DNA from: Pseudomonadota bacterium
Lineage (GTDB): Bacteria > Desulfobacterota > Binatia > Binatales > Binataceae
NCBI GenBank assembly: GCA_021324855.1
Contig: JAJPIG010000026.1
Coordinates: forward strand, 124,001 to 188,000
Direction: 5' to 3'
Length of the DNA: 64,000 bases
This document shows positions 20,183 to 28,551 of this stretch, in pieces (positions within the stretch are counted from its first letter, which is position 1; each line of letters begins with the position of its first letter). The notes beneath the pieces are model-generated. The model saw only the letters and a list, made by a program, of their open reading frames with translations. It did no database searches and was not told the DNA's origin. The translations under genes were made by a program, and so were the position numbers.

Positions 20183-20761
20183 TCAGCCGACGCGCTGTGA
20201 AGCGCCGGAATCCGCCAGCGTTTCGAGCAGGAGTATCGCGACGCCGATCGTAATCGCGCTATCGGCAACGTTAAACACCGGATAACTCCAGCCGTAGTAG
20301 TGGACGTGGATAAAGTCGATTACCACTCCATTCCGGCTGCGATCGATCAGGTTACCCAGCGCGCCGCCCGTGATGAGCGCGAATGCGGCCGTCTGCCATG
20401 ACGGCTTCTCCGCGCGCGCCATCAGTACGATAAGCACCACCAGCGCAATCGCAGTGATCACGAACAGGAAACTCTCGCGCACCTGCGCCGGCAGGTTGGC
20501 GAACAGGCTGAAGGCCGCGCCCGGATTGCGCGTGTAGGTAATGTCGAGGAAATGCTGAATTATCGGTATGGACTGATAGAGCTGCAGATGCGTAGCGACG
20601 TAGAACTTGCTCGCCTGATCAAGAATCAGCACTGGCGCGGTAACCGCCGCGAGCATCAACCACATCGTGCGCAGACGCGACGGCCGCCAGCTCTCAGAGG
20701 CCGGAGCGGAAGCTTCAGTCACCGGCTCAAATCCCGCAGCACCGCGCGGCATCGCGGACAC
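20183..20761 (-). CDS. lspA: Lipoprotein signal peptidase (signal peptidase II)
   Basis: 192 residues, four hydrophobic helices. It cleaves prolipoproteins in the inner membrane after lipidation. The aspartyl catalytic pair is visible in GNLIDRSRNGVVIDFI and FNVADSAI, and TRNPGAAFSLFA is the conserved loop. The N-terminal 30 residues are longer than usual; a downstream start near residue 33 is possible. It overlaps the ileS 3' end by 43 bp, the common ileS-lspA arrangement. Confidence 0.95.
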   Translation of the reverse strand: MSAMPRGAAGFEPVTEASAPASESWRPSRLRTMWLMLAAVTAPVLILDQASKFYVATHLQLYQSIPIIQHFLDITYTRNPGAAFSLFANLPAQVRESFLFVITAIALVVLIVLMARAEKPSWQTAAFALITGGALGNLIDRSRNGVVIDFIHVHYYGWSYPVFNVADSAITIGVAILLLETLADSGASQRVG

Positions 20762-23598
20762 AATTCCGGATTGCCGCCGTCATCGTAATATTTCCAGCAG
20801 CGCTGACATTTGAGACCCGGCGCGCGCTTCGCGCCGACGACCCATCCCAGGGACTCGACCACGCTGTAGTGCGCGCCGTTGCGCGAGGAATTTCCACCCG
20901 CGCCGGTTATCGCGCGCGCATCGGCAGGCTCGAGAAACGACACGCCGGAAACAATGAACAGGTCGGCCAGCTGATCCTTGTACGTGCCGACATCCTTCAA
21001 CAGACCGTCGGGTTTTCCCAATGACCCGAGCTGGACGACGGCTTCGAGCGGCGCGCCGATAGTTCCCTGCTTGCGCATCTCCTCGAGCACCTTCAGCACG
21101 TGATCGCGAAGTCCGAGAAACAGTTCCCATCGGCCCTCGAGCGCCGAATTCGCGACTTCGGGTCGCGCTTCCTGCAGTCTCAGCAGATGAACGCTTTCGC
21201 GCCGCGCCCCTGGAATATGACCGTAGATTTCGTCGGCAGTGTACGGAATCAGCGGCGCGAGCATCCGCACTATCGCATCGAGCAGGATATAGAGCGCGCT
21301 CTGTGCAGAGCGCCGCTCGCGCGACCGCTCGCCCTCGCAGTAGAGGCGATCCCTGACTACATCGATGTACAGCGAGCTCAGATCGACCACGACGAAGTTC
21401 AGCAGTCGATGATAGGCGGTCTGGAAATCGAATTTCTCGTACGCCTGGCGCACTTCGCCTTTGAGCCGTTCGAGGCGCGTCAGGATGTAGCGGTCGAACT
21501 CGAGCATCGCATCCGGAGCAAGCGCGTCGCGCGCCGGGTCGAAATCGTAGAGATTGCCCAGGAGGTAACGCGCGGTGTTGCGGAGCTTGCGGTACGCCTC
21601 GGCGACCGCGCTGAACAGATTCTCGCCGACGCTCATGTCAGCGGCATAGTCGACCGACGCGAAGACCAGCCGGAAAACATCAGCGCCCATCCGCTCGACG
21701 ACATCCGAAGCGTGCTCGAAATTGCCGAGCGACTTCGACATCTTGCGTCCCAGCTCGTCGAGCGCGAGGCCGTGGCTGATGACGTTGCGATACGGCGCGT
21801 GACCTTCCACCGCGGTCGCGCAGATAAGCGACGATTGGAACCAGCCGCGCGCCTGATCGATTCCTTCGACGTACGCCGCCGCCGGCCATCCGAGATCACG
21901 CTGACGGAGCACGGCGGCCTGCGAGCATCCGGAATCGAACCAGACGTCGAGCACGTCCTCGGTCTTCGCGAAATCGGCGCCGCCGCATTTTTCGCATTTC
22001 AAGCCGACGGCAAAATCGGCGACCGGCCGCTGATACCATGCATCCGAGCCCTCGCGGGCGAAAATCTCCTCAACCCGGCGCATCACCGACGGCTCGAGCG
22101 TCACGATCCCGCAGCCGGCGCATCGCAGCGCCGGAATCGGCACGCCCCACGCGCGCTGGCGCGAGAGACACCAGTCGGGCCGCATCTCGACCATGTTGCG
22201 GATTCGATCTCGCGACCATCCGGGCACCCATTTCACGTGACGATCGATTTCTTCGAGCGCGCGCTCGCGCAGACGATTGTGATCGACGCGCAGGAACCAT
22301 TGTTCGGTCGCGCGGAAGATCAGCGGATTCTTGCATCGCCAGCAATGCGGATAGCTGTGACTGACATCCTCGCCATGGAGCAGCGCGCCCGACGCCTTCA
22401 GGTCGGCGACGATCGCGGGGTTCGCCTCGAACACCTGCCGCCCCGCATAGGCGCCCGCCTCGTTTGTGAAGATGCCGCCGTCGTCGACCGGCGTCAGCGT
22501 CGGCAGGCCGTACTGATTGCCGATCACGAAATCCTCGTAGCCATGGCCGGGCGCGGTATGCACCAGCCCGGTGCCCGACTCAGCGGTGACGTGCGGCCCG
22601 AACATCAGCCGCGAATCGCGATCGATGAACGGATGCCGGAAAATGTCCCTGCCGTCGAGCGCCTTGAGCGCGTCGCGCTTGAGCGTGATCCTTCCCGAGG
22701 CTTTCTGTCCGCAAGCCTGCTCGACGGCCTCGGCGAGGCGCTCGGCGACGATGTACCACGAAGCGCCGAAGCGGAGCGCGACGTAGTCGAAGGTTTCGTT
22801 GAGCGTGATTCCGAGGTTCGCCGGGAGCGTCCACGGCGTCGTCGTCCAGATCAGCGCGAAGAGCCGGCCCGCGCGATGCGCCTCGGCGAGCGTCGCGCCG
22901 TCCGCAGGATTTTCGACGAGCGCCGCCGCATCGCCGAGCTTGTCATTGATGCGGAAGGCGACGTAAATCGACGGCGACAGATGGTCGCGATATTCGACCT
23001 CGGCTTCGGCCAGCGCGGTGCGGCATTCGATGCACCAGTGGACCGGGCGCAGGCCGCGGTAGATATAGCCGGCCTCGACCATCTGGCGCAGCACGCCGAT
23101 CTCGGCCGCTTCGTATTCCGGCGCGAGCGTCACGTAAGGTTTGTCCCAGTCGCCGATCGCGCCGAGGCGGCGGAAGTCGACGCGCTGGATGTCGATATAT
23201 TTCTCGGCGTGCGCGCGGCATAGCTTGCGCAGCTCGAGCTTCGAGATCGTGCGGGCGCGCTCGCCGAGCTCGCGCGTGACGTCGAGCTCGATCGGCATCC
23301 CATGGCAATCCCATCCGGGAACGAACGGCGTGCGATAGCCGAGCAGAGCGTGCGATCGCACAATGAAATCCTTGAGCGTCTTGTTGAGCGCGGTGCCGAA
23401 GTGGACGCGGCCGTTGGCGTATGGCGGGCCGTCGTGCAGCACCCAGAGCTCGGCATTGGCGCGCTCCGCGAGCAGACGTTCGTAGATTTTCAAGTCTTCC
23501 CAGCGCTTGAGCATCTCCGGCTCCCGCTTGGGCAGATTTGCCTTCATCGGGAAGTCGGTTTTGGGAAGCTTGAGGGTCGCCTTGTAGTCGGTAGCCAC
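20719..23598 (-). CDS. ileS: Isoleucyl-tRNA synthetase
   Basis: 959 residues, normal for bacterial IleRS. The HIGH motif appears as HFGT in PPYANGRVHFGTALNKTLKD, and KMSKS is intact in GRKMSKSLGN. The editing domain lies between (about 200-390, with WTTTPWTLPANLG). The C-terminal zinc finger is C-x-x-C ... C-x-x-C (KCQRCWKYY and LCPRCR). It is upstream of and overlapping lspA, and divergent from the CoA-transferase pair across 134 bp. Confidence 0.97.
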   Translation of the reverse strand: MATDYKATLKLPKTDFPMKANLPKREPEMLKRWEDLKIYERLLAERANAELWVLHDGPPYANGRVHFGTALNKTLKDFIVRSHALLGYRTPFVPGWDCHGMPIELDVTRELGERARTISKLELRKLCRAHAEKYIDIQRVDFRRLGAIGDWDKPYVTLAPEYEAAEIGVLRQMVEAGYIYRGLRPVHWCIECRTALAEAEVEYRDHLSPSIYVAFRINDKLGDAAALVENPADGATLAEAHRAGRLFALIWTTTPWTLPANLGITLNETFDYVALRFGASWYIVAERLAEAVEQACGQKASGRITLKRDALKALDGRDIFRHPFIDRDSRLMFGPHVTAESGTGLVHTAPGHGYEDFVIGNQYGLPTLTPVDDGGIFTNEAGAYAGRQVFEANPAIVADLKASGALLHGEDVSHSYPHCWRCKNPLIFRATEQWFLRVDHNRLRERALEEIDRHVKWVPGWSRDRIRNMVEMRPDWCLSRQRAWGVPIPALRCAGCGIVTLEPSVMRRVEEIFAREGSDAWYQRPVADFAVGLKCEKCGGADFAKTEDVLDVWFDSGCSQAAVLRQRDLGWPAAAYVEGIDQARGWFQSSLICATAVEGHAPYRNVISHGLALDELGRKMSKSLGNFEHASDVVERMGADVFRLVFASVDYAADMSVGENLFSAVAEAYRKLRNTARYLLGNLYDFDPARDALAPDAMLEFDRYILTRLERLKGEVRQAYEKFDFQTAYHRLLNFVVVDLSSLYIDVVRDRLYCEGERSRERRSAQSALYILLDAIVRMLAPLIPYTADEIYGHIPGARRESVHLLRLQEARPEVANSALEGRWELFLGLRDHVLKVLEEMRKQGTIGAPLEAVVQLGSLGKPDGLLKDVGTYKDQLADLFIVSGVSFLEPADARAITGAGGNSSRNGAHYSVVESLGWVVGAKRAPGLKCQRCWKYYDDGGNPELCPRCRAVLRDLSR

Positions 23599-23732: not shown

Positions 23733-24959
23733 TTGACCTTGGCATCGGAATCCGCTGCGCAATCAGGGGCCCTCGCTGGCCTCAGGGTACTCGATCTCAC
23801 CGACTACCGCGCCCATCTCTGCGGCCGCCTGCTCGCCGATTTCGGCGCCGACGTAATCAAGGTCGAGCCCCCCGGCGGCGACTACGGACGGCGAATCGGA
23901 CCGTTCGTCGACGACCGGCCGCATCGCGATCGCAGCCTCTTCTTCTGGTTCTATAATTCCAACAAGCGCTCGCTCACGCTTGATCTCGAAAGTGCGCGCG
24001 GCCGTGAAATCCTGCTCGATCTCGCCCGCGGCGCGGATGTGATCATCGAAAATTTCGGGCCGGGACGCGCCGATGCGATGGGCCTCGGATGGGCGCAACT
24101 CCAAGAGGTCAACCCGGCCCTCGTGATGCTGTCGATTTCGCCGTTCGGCGCCGACGGTCCCTATCGCGATTACGTTGCCGACGATGCGGTGCTCACCGCG
24201 GTCGGCGGGATGCTCTACGTCAATGGCTATCCCGACCGTCCTCCCGTGCGGCCACTTGGACTGCAGGCCTATCACGTCGCATCGTATTACGGCGCGATTG
24301 CGGTCGTCTGCGCGTTGTTCGCGCGCGACCGCGACGGTATTGGCCAATGGATCGATCTCAGCATGCAGGCCGCGACCACCGGCGCGCTCGAACATGTGGT
24401 CGGCCTCTTCTTCCAGAACGGTCAGCCCGAGCGGCGCCATGGCACGCTCCATTGGGCGCGCTTTTTCCGGGCCGGCAAATGCCGCGATGGCTACGTGCTG
24501 AATTGCACAATCGGCGACTGGACCTCGCTTATCGAATGGGTCAAGGGCGACGGGGCGGCGCAGGATTTGACCGGCCCCGAATGGCACGAGTACGACTATC
24601 GCGCAAAGCACGCCGAGCATCTGTTCGACGTTCTCGATGCGTGGGTGGCTGACAAGCGTCGCGACGAGGTCGTCGAGCGCGCGCAACTTCTGCGTCAACC
24701 CTTTGCGGCTGTGCGTTTTCCCGGCGAGCTGTTCGAGGACGAACAGCTTCGCGCGCGCGGCTACTTCGTCGAAGTCGAGCATCCCGAACTCGGCCGCAGC
24801 TTCCGCTATCCGGGCGCGCCGGCGTTGATGCATGGAACGCCGTGGCGCATCAATCGCCGGCCGCCGCTGCTCGGCGAACATACCGATGAAATCCTGCGCG
24901 GCGAACTGGGAATGAACGCGGAAGAACTCGCGGTGCTCGTCGGCGAGGGAGTGATCTGA
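23733..24959 (+). CDS. CaiB/BaiF class III CoA-transferase, subunit lacking catalytic Asp
   Basis: 408 residues (TTG start; another TTG lies two codons on). Family features: LRVLDLTDYRAHLCGRLLADFGADVIKVEPPGGD, NKRSLTLDLES, DVIIENFGPG and GQWIDLSMQ. The catalytic Asp of class III CoA-transferases (Asp169 in formyl-CoA transferase), counted back from the GQ-x-x-D-L-S motif, falls on Tyr180/His181 here (LQAYHVASYYG), while the neighbour keeps it. This protein may be a structural or substrate-binding partner in a heteromer with the next gene, which follows after 2 bp. Independent catalysis is doubtful. Confidence 0.85.
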   Translation: MTLASESAAQSGALAGLRVLDLTDYRAHLCGRLLADFGADVIKVEPPGGDYGRRIGPFVDDRPHRDRSLFFWFYNSNKRSLTLDLESARGREILLDLARGADVIIENFGPGRADAMGLGWAQLQEVNPALVMLSISPFGADGPYRDYVADDAVLTAVGGMLYVNGYPDRPPVRPLGLQAYHVASYYGAIAVVCALFARDRDGIGQWIDLSMQAATTGALEHVVGLFFQNGQPERRHGTLHWARFFRAGKCRDGYVLNCTIGDWTSLIEWVKGDGAAQDLTGPEWHEYDYRAKHAEHLFDVLDAWVADKRRDEVVERAQLLRQPFAAVRFPGELFEDEQLRARGYFVEVEHPELGRSFRYPGAPALMHGTPWRINRRPPLLGEHTDEILRGELGMNAEELAVLVGEGVI

Positions 24960-24961
24960 CC

Positions 24962-26161
24962 GTGGCGATGGCGCTCGAAGGCATCCGGGTGGTCGATTTT
25001 ACCTGGGTCGTTGCGGGGCCGGTGGCGACCCGGATGCTCGCCGACAACGGCGCCGAGGTGATCAAGGTCGAGCGCAAGAGTCCGGGCTTCATGGGTCCTC
25101 GCAAGATCGGTCTCCAGCCCGATCTGAATCGCAACAAGCTCTCAGTCGCGATCAACATGGCGGAGCCGCGCGGCGTCGAGCTGGCACGTCGCCTGGTGAA
25201 GATCAGCGACTTGGTGATCGACAACTTCTCGGCGCGCGTGATGCGCGGCTGGGGGATGGATTACGAGAACCTGCGCAAGATCAAGCCCGACATCATCTGC
25301 ATGAGCATGTCGGGGCTCGGACATACCGGCCCACGGCGCGATTACGTCAGCTACGGACCGACCCTGCAGGCGCTGACCGGGTTCGTTCGCCTGATGACCG
25401 ATCCGAACGGCGCGCCGGCCGGTTACGGCTATTCGTTCTCCGATCTCGCGGGCGGCCTCGCGGGCGGCCTCGTCGCGCTCGCCGCGTTATGGCATCGGCG
25501 ACGCACCGGCCAGGGCCAGTTCATCGATTTGTCGCAGATGGAAGCGCTTACCGGGTTCATCGGACCGGGGCTCCTCGATATCGCGGTCAACGGCCGCGAA
25601 CAATCGCCCGTGGACTGGCGATCGCAGGAGCGGCCAATGGCGCCGTACGGCGTCTATCGATGCGCTCCGGAAGGCGACGACGACGATCGCTGGATTGTCA
25701 TCTCGGTCGCGACACAGGCGGAATGGGATCGTTTCGTCGGCGCGATCGGACGGCCATCGTGGACCACCGATGCGAAGTTTCGCACGCTCTATCTCAGAAT
25801 TCGCAATCGCGAGGAGCTCGATCGCAACGTCGAGGCGTGGACCCGAAACCTGCCGTCGGAAGAGGCGATGACCATCCTGCAGCGCGCGGGCGTGCCGGCG
25901 GGCGCGGTGCGCAATGGCGCGGACCTTTGCACGCGCGATCCGCAGCTGCGCTTCCGCGATTTCTGGGGCCGCGTCCCGCGGCCCGACGGTCCCGACACCT
26001 ACGTCAGCGGCATCCCGTACCGCCTTTCGGCGACGCCCGGATCGATTCGCTCCAACTGCCCTGAAGTCGGCGAGCATAACGATTACGTGCTCGGCGAGTT
26101 GCTAGGGCTTTCCGCCGCCGAGCGCGAGGAATTGTTCGAGAGCAAGGTCGTCTGGCGTTGA
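24962..26161 (+). CDS. CaiB/BaiF class III CoA-transferase, catalytic-type subunit
   Basis: 399 residues from GTG 24962 (ATG at 24968 is also possible). It moves CoA between acyl-CoA and a free acid via a covalent Asp-CoA anhydride. MALEGIRVVDFTWVVAGPVATRMLADNGAEVIKVE, DNFSARVM and GQGQFIDLSQMEALTGF are family text, and the catalytic Asp is Asp161 (SFSDLAGGLAGG). The gap to the preceding homologue is 2 bp, so the pair is co-translated. Context with an AhpD-like selenoprotein and an HpaB-type oxygenase suggests activation or transfer in an aromatic or other acid catabolic route; the substrate is unknown. Confidence 0.9.
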   Translation: MAMALEGIRVVDFTWVVAGPVATRMLADNGAEVIKVERKSPGFMGPRKIGLQPDLNRNKLSVAINMAEPRGVELARRLVKISDLVIDNFSARVMRGWGMDYENLRKIKPDIICMSMSGLGHTGPRRDYVSYGPTLQALTGFVRLMTDPNGAPAGYGYSFSDLAGGLAGGLVALAALWHRRRTGQGQFIDLSQMEALTGFIGPGLLDIAVNGREQSPVDWRSQERPMAPYGVYRCAPEGDDDDRWIVISVATQAEWDRFVGAIGRPSWTTDAKFRTLYLRIRNREELDRNVEAWTRNLPSEEAMTILQRAGVPAGAVRNGADLCTRDPQLRFRDFWGRVPRPDGPDTYVSGIPYRLSATPGSIRSNCPEVGEHNDYVLGELLGLSAAEREELFESKVVWR

Positions 26162-26255: not shown

Positions 26256-26879
26256 ATGGACGACAAGCATAATCGTCAAGGCGGCGGCGACCGGCGACAC
26301 TTCATCGCGTGGATCGATCTGCCTACGCCGGAGCAGATCCGCGCGATGGGTCTGCCGCCGAGCTATAACTACGGCTTCGTCGGTGCGATGGGCCGCCTGA
26401 TGGTGGCGCATCCCAAAATCGGACCGCACTTCACCCGGCTCTTCCAGCAGATCATGTTCGGACCGGGCGCGCTCAATCGGCAGGAGCGCGAGATGGTCGC
26501 GATGGTGACGGCGCGCGCGCAGAACTGTTTCTATTGAACGCAGTCACACGCAGAGTTTCTGCGTGCCGAGGGCGGCGACCCCAGGCTGATCGATGCCATC
26601 CATGAGCAACGCTGGCAAACTCTCGAGGGCATCGCGCCGCGAACGCGGGCCCTGTGCGATCTCGCAAATAAAATGAGCGGGAGCCCGACCATGATGACGC
26701 GCGAAGATTGGCAACCGCTGCGAGAACTCGGCTTCAGCGATGAAGCGCTGCTCGAAGTCGGCCACATCGTCGGAATTTTCAACTATCTCACCCGACTCGC
26801 GGATGGCTTCGGTCTCGAAGTCGATGAGGCGGTGCTGGAGGCCACGCGCACCAAGATTCCGCTCAAGAAGCAGGACTGA
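26256..26879 (+). CDS. AhpD-like selenoprotein with C-x-x-U active site (in-frame TGA 26535-26537)
   Basis: Reading TGA 26535-26537 as selenocysteine gives one 207-residue protein of the AhpD/carboxymuconolactone decarboxylase-like family. Before the codon: [21 protein letters not shown]. After it: [13 protein letters not shown], then LCDLANKM and [28 protein letters not shown], the usual C-terminal half. The active site becomes C91-F-Y-U94-T-Q-S-H98, matching AhpD C-x-x-C-x-x-x-H, with Sec at the position of the peroxidatic Cys. No other stop occurs in the 113 codons that follow. A SECIS-like hairpin lies directly downstream. Expected role: thiol-dependent peroxide or acyl-hydroperoxide reduction. 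ATG 26256 is the only plausible start; an in-frame TAG lies at 26223. The alternative is a nonsense-mutated pseudogene. Confidence 0.87.
26538..26565 (+). promoter_or_regulatory. Bacterial SECIS element candidate
   Basis: CACGCAGA (26547-26554), loop GTT (26555-26557), TCTGCGTG (26558-26565) form a perfect 8-bp stem. The apical loop starts 17 nt after the TGA and its first base is G. Both fit the published bacterial SECIS consensus: loop 16-37 nt from UGA, a G among the first two loop bases, and loop of 3-14 nt. It should recruit SelB with Sec-tRNA at the UGA. The stem is inside the coding frame, as in E. coli fdhF. Confidence 0.8.
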
Positions 26880-26976: not shown

Positions 26977-28551
26977 ATGAGGGTCGAGCAGCAGATGGAA
27001 TCGCAACCCGTCTTGTCCCTGCCGAAGCGGCCTTTGACCGGTGCTGAATTCCTCGAAAGTCTCAAGGACGGTCGCGAGGTCTATATCTACGGCGAACGGG
27101 TGCCCGACGTCACGCAACATCCGGCGTTTCGCAATGCCGCGCGGATGTTGGCCCGACTTTACGACGCGCTGCACGATCCCGCCCGCAAGGAGACTCTGAC
27201 CACCACGACCGATACCGGCAACGGCGGCTTCACTCATCGCTTCTACCGCGCCGATCGCAGCGCCGAGGAGATGGTCAAGACGCGCGACGCGATCGCGGAA
27301 TGGGCGCGCGTCACGTGGGGCTGGATGGGCCGCTCGCCGGATTACAAGGCGAGCTTCATGGGGACGCTGGGCGCGAACTCGAAATTTTACGAGCCCTACC
27401 ATGAGAACGCCAAGGCCTGGTATCGGCGCGCGCAGGAACAGTGCCTCTACATGAACCACGCGCTGGTCAATCCGCCGGTCGATAAATCGCGGCCGATCAA
27501 CGAATACAGCGATGTCTATGTGCACGCCGAAAAAGAGACCGATGCCGGTGTGATCGTCAGCGGCGCCAAGGTCGTCGCCACCAACTCCGCACTCACGCAT
27601 TTCAATTTCGTCGGCTGCTACCCGCTGATCGGACGCCCCGAGCAGGCCGTGTTCGCGATGTTGCCGATGAATGCGCCCGGCCTGAAGCTAATTTGCCGCA
27701 CCTCGTACGAAATGACCTCCGAGGTGATGGGCAGTCCGTTCGATTATCCGCTCTCGAGCCGCCTCGATGAGAACGACGCGATCCTGGTCCTCGACAAGGT
27801 GCTGATCCCCTGGGAGAACGTCTTTCTCTATCGCGACGTCGAAAAGGCCAACAACTTCTTCCCGGTCTCCGGCTTCCTTCATCGGTTTGCCCTTCATGGA
27901 TGCACGCGGCTCGCGGTCAAGCTCGATTTTCTGTGCGGCCTGACACTGCTCGCGGGCGAGGTCACCGGCGTCAAGGACAAGGCCTTCGGCAAAATGCAGC
28001 TCGGCGAGATGCTTGCGTGGCGACATCTGATTTGGGGCCTTACCGACGCGATGGCGCGCACGCCCGACCCGTGGGTCGACGGCACGGTGCTGCCCAACAT
28101 GAACTACGCTCACGCGTATCGCGTGCTGGCGCCGGTGGTCTATCCGCGCGTGAAGGAAATCGTCGAGCAGATTATCTCCAGCGGTTTGATTTACCTGAAT
28201 TCGCATGCCTCGGATTTCCGAAATCCAGAAATCCGCGCGATGCTCGACAAGTACCTGCGCGGCTCCTATGGCCAGAACGCCGAAGAGCGCGTGAAGATCA
28301 TGAAGCTCTTGTGGGATGGGATCGGCACCGAGTTCGGCGGCCGCCACGAGCTTTACGAGCGCAATTACGCCGGCAACTACGAGGACATCCGCTCGCAGAC
28401 GCTGTTCGGCAACGATGCCGACGGGGTCACGGCGGCGCTCAAGAACTTCGCGCGCACCTGCATGGACGAGTACGATCTCGACGGCTGGCGGACGCAGGAT
28501 CTGATCAACGCGATCGACATCAGCGTGACCAACCGCAACGGCAGGCGCTAG
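26977..28551 (+). CDS. HpaB-type flavin-dependent monooxygenase, oxygenase component
   Basis: 524 residues, the usual size of 4-hydroxyphenylacetate 3-monooxygenase large subunits. These use FADH2 from a separate reductase to ortho-hydroxylate phenols. Residues equivalent to the Thermus HpaB substrate triad are present with identical spacing: Arg119 and Tyr123 in GRSPDYKAS and His161 in NHALVNPP. The Fe-S cysteines of the related 4-hydroxybutyryl-CoA dehydratase are not seen, which argues against that function. The N-terminus reads [25 protein letters not shown]. No HpaC reductase is in the window. It lies 97 bp after the selenoprotein gene. The substrate is probably phenolic but undetermined. 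Confidence 0.88.

Follow-up and report, generated by a model that had tools for sequence, protein, structure and literature searches.

A gene of the AhpD-like family in the 64,000-nucleotide stretch of DNA analysed here (the window) almost certainly encodes a genuine selenoprotein, whose full-length product would arise from the reading of an in-frame TGA as selenocysteine (Sec). Positions 26256-26879 form a single 207-codon frame with a lone internal TGA at 26535-26537, which lies within the sequence N-C-F-Y-U-T-Q-S-H. As a preliminary description of this locus had proposed, the TGA takes the place of the second Cys in the AhpD C-x-x-C-x-x-x-H site, a position at which the solved homologues 6k40, 2oyo and 2pfx have an aligned Cys, and the frame then stays open for 113 codons until its terminal TGA; all of the coordinates given in that description hold. 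The start is the only in-frame ATG, GTG or TTG between 26226 and Ala18, and no clear Shine-Dalgarno sequence was found upstream of 26256. The observation of a TGA-interrupted AhpD frame is therefore confirmed, and its interpretation as a selenoprotein gene is very well supported by the comparisons that follow.

Features of the AhpD-like locus (positions are those of the window)
Feature	Position	Strand	Remarks
CoA-transferase family III (CaiB-like), neighbour 1	23733..24959	+	context; beside the gene in only one other family member
CoA-transferase family III (CaiB-like), neighbour 2	24962..26161	+	context; upstream of the AhpD-like gene
AhpD-like (TIGR01926 / CMD) selenoprotein gene, 207 aa	26256..26879	+	TGA predicted to be read as Sec at residue 94
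In-frame TGA, Sec94	26535..26537	+	second position of C91-F-Y-U94-T-Q-S-H98; TGA in 54/54 distinct orthologues
SECIS stem-loop CACGCAGA-GTT-TCTGCGTG	26547..26565	+	8-bp stem; loop G at 26555, 17 nt after the TGA
HpaB-type flavin-dependent monooxygenase	26977..28551	+	TIGR02310, 696 bits, below the 885-bit cut-off; downstream

The ORF list shows a 93-residue frame for the N-terminal part of the gene, and routine annotation would split the gene into two. Such a pair of fragments, together with the fact that in-frame TGA codons are by themselves common among pseudogenes, is also what would be expected of a decaying Cys gene interrupted by a nonsense mutation or of one misread through a base-call error. 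We regard either origin as extremely improbable, given that the identical codon is TGA in every one of the 54 distinct orthologues we collected, which are 50-82% identical and, going by record titles, belong to about ten phyla, that the frame has no other stop and that the catalytic residues show no drift. Within the same class, orthologues of 54-82% identity occur in seven further genomes, and TGA stands at this codon in all seven. A wider scan of 84,980 species, with one genome per species, returned 52 relatives, 51 of which have the TGA; the sole exception (L116) is a homologue of 30% identity with TGC at this position and a degraded stem. At an E value of 1e-20, no Cys orthologue was found among the 297 genomes of the phylum that were searched. 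Because the same TGA recurs in dozens of independent assemblies, a base-call error is excluded, and the scattered decay that would mark relatives of a pseudogene is replaced by a conserved TGA that refutes this reading as a whole. Alignment to homologues, which the preliminary description had proposed for this column, thus gives TGA throughout the orthologues and Cys in the homologues of solved structure.

That family sequence goes on past the TGA would also be accounted for if this organism generally read UGA as another amino acid, such as Trp or Gly, in which case the codon would not specify Sec. The probability of such a reassignment is negligible: the AhpD-like gene and its upstream neighbour both terminate in TGA, stops in the same genome that refute it, the interrupting codon sits exactly at the catalytic Cys column, and the genome possesses a full Sec pathway. 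In this assembly (3.75 Mb in 38 contigs, 96% complete), matches to SelA (579 bits), SelB (370 bits) and SelD (392 bits) were all found, and selC, the tRNA-Sec with anticodon TCA, lies on the window's own contig but outside the window, in which ARAGORN finds no tRNA. The four components that the preliminary description had suggested looking for are therefore present, and the absence of machinery that would have counted against a selenoprotein was not encountered. SelB also scores above the cut-off in 50 of 57 related genomes and, among 24 sampled TGA-bearing genomes from the wider scan, in 19 plus one in which it is split across contigs; it was not found in the other four, which are metagenome-assembled and possibly incomplete, nor in the one Cys genome. 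The SelD gene itself (G000:C35:96180-97106, L119), directly downstream of selB, has an in-frame TGA in the motif G-U-A-G and is itself Sec-coding.

The hairpin that follows the TGA shows selection at the RNA level. The perfect 8-bp stem, its GTT loop beginning with G and its distance from the TGA are as first described. Taken singly, the sequence folds only a little more stably than its shuffled versions (z -1.76), and Rfam models applied to the window at their gathering thresholds gave no SECIS and no other family match; when synonymous codons were resampled for the same peptide, 0.35% of draws formed all eight pairs at this position. Since single-sequence folding is weak, we turned to comparative codon evidence. 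Relative to the rest of the same genes, the six hairpin codons are synonymously frozen in the 54 distinct Sec orthologues, with observed counts against expected ones of 52/54 against 35.1 for CAC, 45/51 against 6.6 for GCA, 52/53 against 32.2 for GAG, 46/52 against 10.7 for TTT, 51/54 against 23.7 for CTG and 53/54 against 7.3 for CGT. Immediately beyond the hairpin, residues that are just as conserved have codons that vary freely, Glu105 for example being split 27/27. As the synonymous freeze is limited to the hairpin codons, it points to selection on the RNA at the place where a SECIS should be. We consider this comparison decisive evidence that the hairpin is not a chance structure, and a pattern of this kind is, as judged from codon usage, the signature of a SECIS and not of a decaying gene. 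In three marine Alpha- and Gammaproteobacterial orthologues (L096, L097 and L113), the TGA is kept and a weak stem lies about 10-28 nt after it in place of the canonical hairpin. These three form one clade (support 99/94), and SelB is strongly matched in their genomes, which suggests that their SECIS has diverged and is recognised by a different SelB; SECIS and SelB may perhaps have diverged in step.

Sec insertion is usually inefficient, and a stable 93-residue product is conceivable. One might therefore imagine that UGA mostly terminates translation here, with the stem acting as a selenium-dependent switch, or that Cys sometimes replaces Sec. We think regulated truncation of this type very unlikely, for the C-terminal half of the protein is conserved like the N-terminal half and many invariant residues follow Sec94. 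Because the two halves are conserved alike, it is the full-length product that is under selection, and on these comparisons the AhpD-like selenoprotein gene as such is under selection.

The predicted product belongs to the TIGR01926 "peroxidase-related enzyme" family (122 bits, cut-off 81.8), and the Pfam CMD and PF04636 models are matched as well. All 35 aligned members match TIGR01926 at E 0.001 or better. An AlphaFold2 model of the 207-residue protein (pLDDT 90.4, pTM 0.87) is closest among solved structures to 6k40 (Z 21.8, rmsd 2.4, 180 residues). The peroxidatic cysteine of M. tuberculosis AhpD is the second one of the CxxC motif. Elsewhere, both cysteines have been assigned peroxidase activity, and the proton relay of PA0269 is made up of E36, C48, Y50, C51 and H55 (PMC3141380). 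The spacing of E79, C91, Y93, U94 and H98 in our protein is the same, and these four residues and position 94 are invariant among the 35 aligned members. According to the model, then, the protein probably has the AhpD fold with the relay residues Glu, Cys, Tyr/His, Cys (here Sec) and His. The Cys proteins of TIGR01926 type with solved structures (6k40 from D. radiodurans, 2oyo, 2pfx, 2prr and 3c1l) share this fold (179-184 residues, Z 20-22) and the same catalytic set, but they are only 24-29% identical to it and have Cys where it has Sec. The N-terminal domain of human sestrin 2 also has an AhpD-like fold in common with it (Z 11-14), along with the PF04636 match, but sestrin 2 is a distant, multi-domain eukaryotic regulator and not an orthologue.

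These assignments suggest a way in which the enzyme may be made and may work. A SelB-GTP-tRNA-Sec complex would bind the stem-loop immediately downstream of UGA-94, and Sec would be inserted at codon 94, yielding an all-helical AhpD-fold enzyme of 207 residues in which Glu79, Cys91, Tyr93, Sec94 and His98 would occupy the proton-relay positions. Sec94 is most likely the nucleophile, deprotonated via the Glu-His relay and oxidised by peroxide or hydroperoxide. Cys91 would then serve as the resolving thiol to form a selenenylsulfide with Sec94, which a cellular thiol system would reduce. Peroxidase activity is assumed here from the family, and the chemistry, substrate and reductant are all inferred. 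Alternatively, the selenoprotein may carry out a different thiol- or selenol-based reaction, such as a dehalogenation or decarboxylation like that of Bmp8, in the service of the adjacent catabolic-type genes. The debrominase Bmp8 (6ohi) is a relative in both sequence and fold (Z 19.9), and the gene does adjoin CoA-transferases and an HpaB-type monooxygenase. Nevertheless, AhpD and peroxidase-related proteins are closer by sequence and by Z, and the neighbourhood varies across orthologues, so we find chemistry of this kind unlikely.

The CoA-transferases are kept beside the gene in one genome of the same family only, and HpaB only in one of the same genus. When 409 neighbouring ORFs were clustered, no conserved operon partner emerged at a constant position save within near-identical Binatia genomes, and in the absence of a recurring partner the gene looks stand-alone. 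The preliminary description had called the member in this setting possibly new, but the setting does not mark a new functional type. The neighbourhood is lineage-specific and says little about function. A local role in clearing peroxide released by uncoupled turnover of the flavin monooxygenase is a possible, hypothetical one. Further upstream, ileS and lspA (20183-23598, minus strand) are arranged head-to-head with the two CoA-transferase genes; the lspA-ileS-CoA-transferases-AhpD block is kept in one related genome (G012), and another (G001) keeps AhpD-HpaB only.

CXXU AhpD-like selenoproteins were reported in 2005 with 27 sequences in COG2128 (PMC1088965) and in 2008 as AhpD-like 1 and 2 with 299 and 70 sequences (PMC2398784), and a 2026 review lists TIGR01926 CxxU, with the deposited sequence MCB9421940.1, and NF041238 CxxU among the selenoprotein families (PMC13188914). 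The earlier suggestion that the class is known and that this member may be new was thus right about the class, which has however been described more thoroughly than it implied. The gene accordingly adds a well-supported member to the known AhpD-like selenoproteins and is no new phenomenon. By description, it resembles the AhpD-like sequences of the Sargasso Sea and GOS collections (COG2128, "AhpD-like 1"), which have the same CxxU, are of TIGR01926 type and have a SECIS just past the TGA; those, unlike our gene, are mostly metagenomic reads. Among our orthologues are some from marine SAR202 and SAR324. With NF041238 (AhpD_rel_CFYUT, the hypothetical protein 1 of the Sargasso Sea), it has C-F-Y-U-T in common and matches the C-terminal half (61.9 bits, positions 180-343 only, under the cut-off of 175), but that model has 357 positions and our 207-residue protein is without the N-terminal half. 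We found no biochemical characterisation of this Sec subfamily in the literature and nothing there on Binatota and selenoproteins.

On a tree of the 54 orthologues, 16 changes of phylum are needed against a minimum of 9, which suggests transfer between phyla, an unproven reading limited by the phylum labels of metagenome-assembled genomes and by weak deep forks. Since there is no Cys among the 54 members from about ten phyla and the SECIS codons are nearly invariant, we think it quite possible, without favouring it, that these proteins form a Sec-only subfamily of TIGR01926 and that the gene, along with its recoding signal, perhaps passed as one unit from phylum to phylum. If the subfamily is truly Sec-only, it would be a case in which Cys does not substitute for Sec and would lend itself well to testing what advantage Sec has over Cys. 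In any event, a hairpin frozen at the nucleotide level across many phyla makes this AhpD-like gene a clear example for the comparative study of UGA recoding.

The same genome also contains a second AhpD-like gene (G000:C5:243-1484, L056), a two-domain protein of 414 residues with the motif C-R-F-U-G-I-E-H and a TIGR01926 match of 151 bits. It carries the identical 13-nt SECIS core GCAGAGTTTCTGC. Apart from this gene and the one in the window, a pattern search of the genome for this core turned up no site at which a suitable TGA and a long open frame go together. Related genomes hold many further AhpD/CMD paralogues with CxxU (L026, L028, L035-L039, L065 and L133) in which the neighbours of U differ, the motifs CHYURASH, CTHUTVAH, CVYUEDGH, CEYUISFH and CFYULTAH being found among others, and with so many of them AhpD-like selenoproteins seem unusually abundant in this class.
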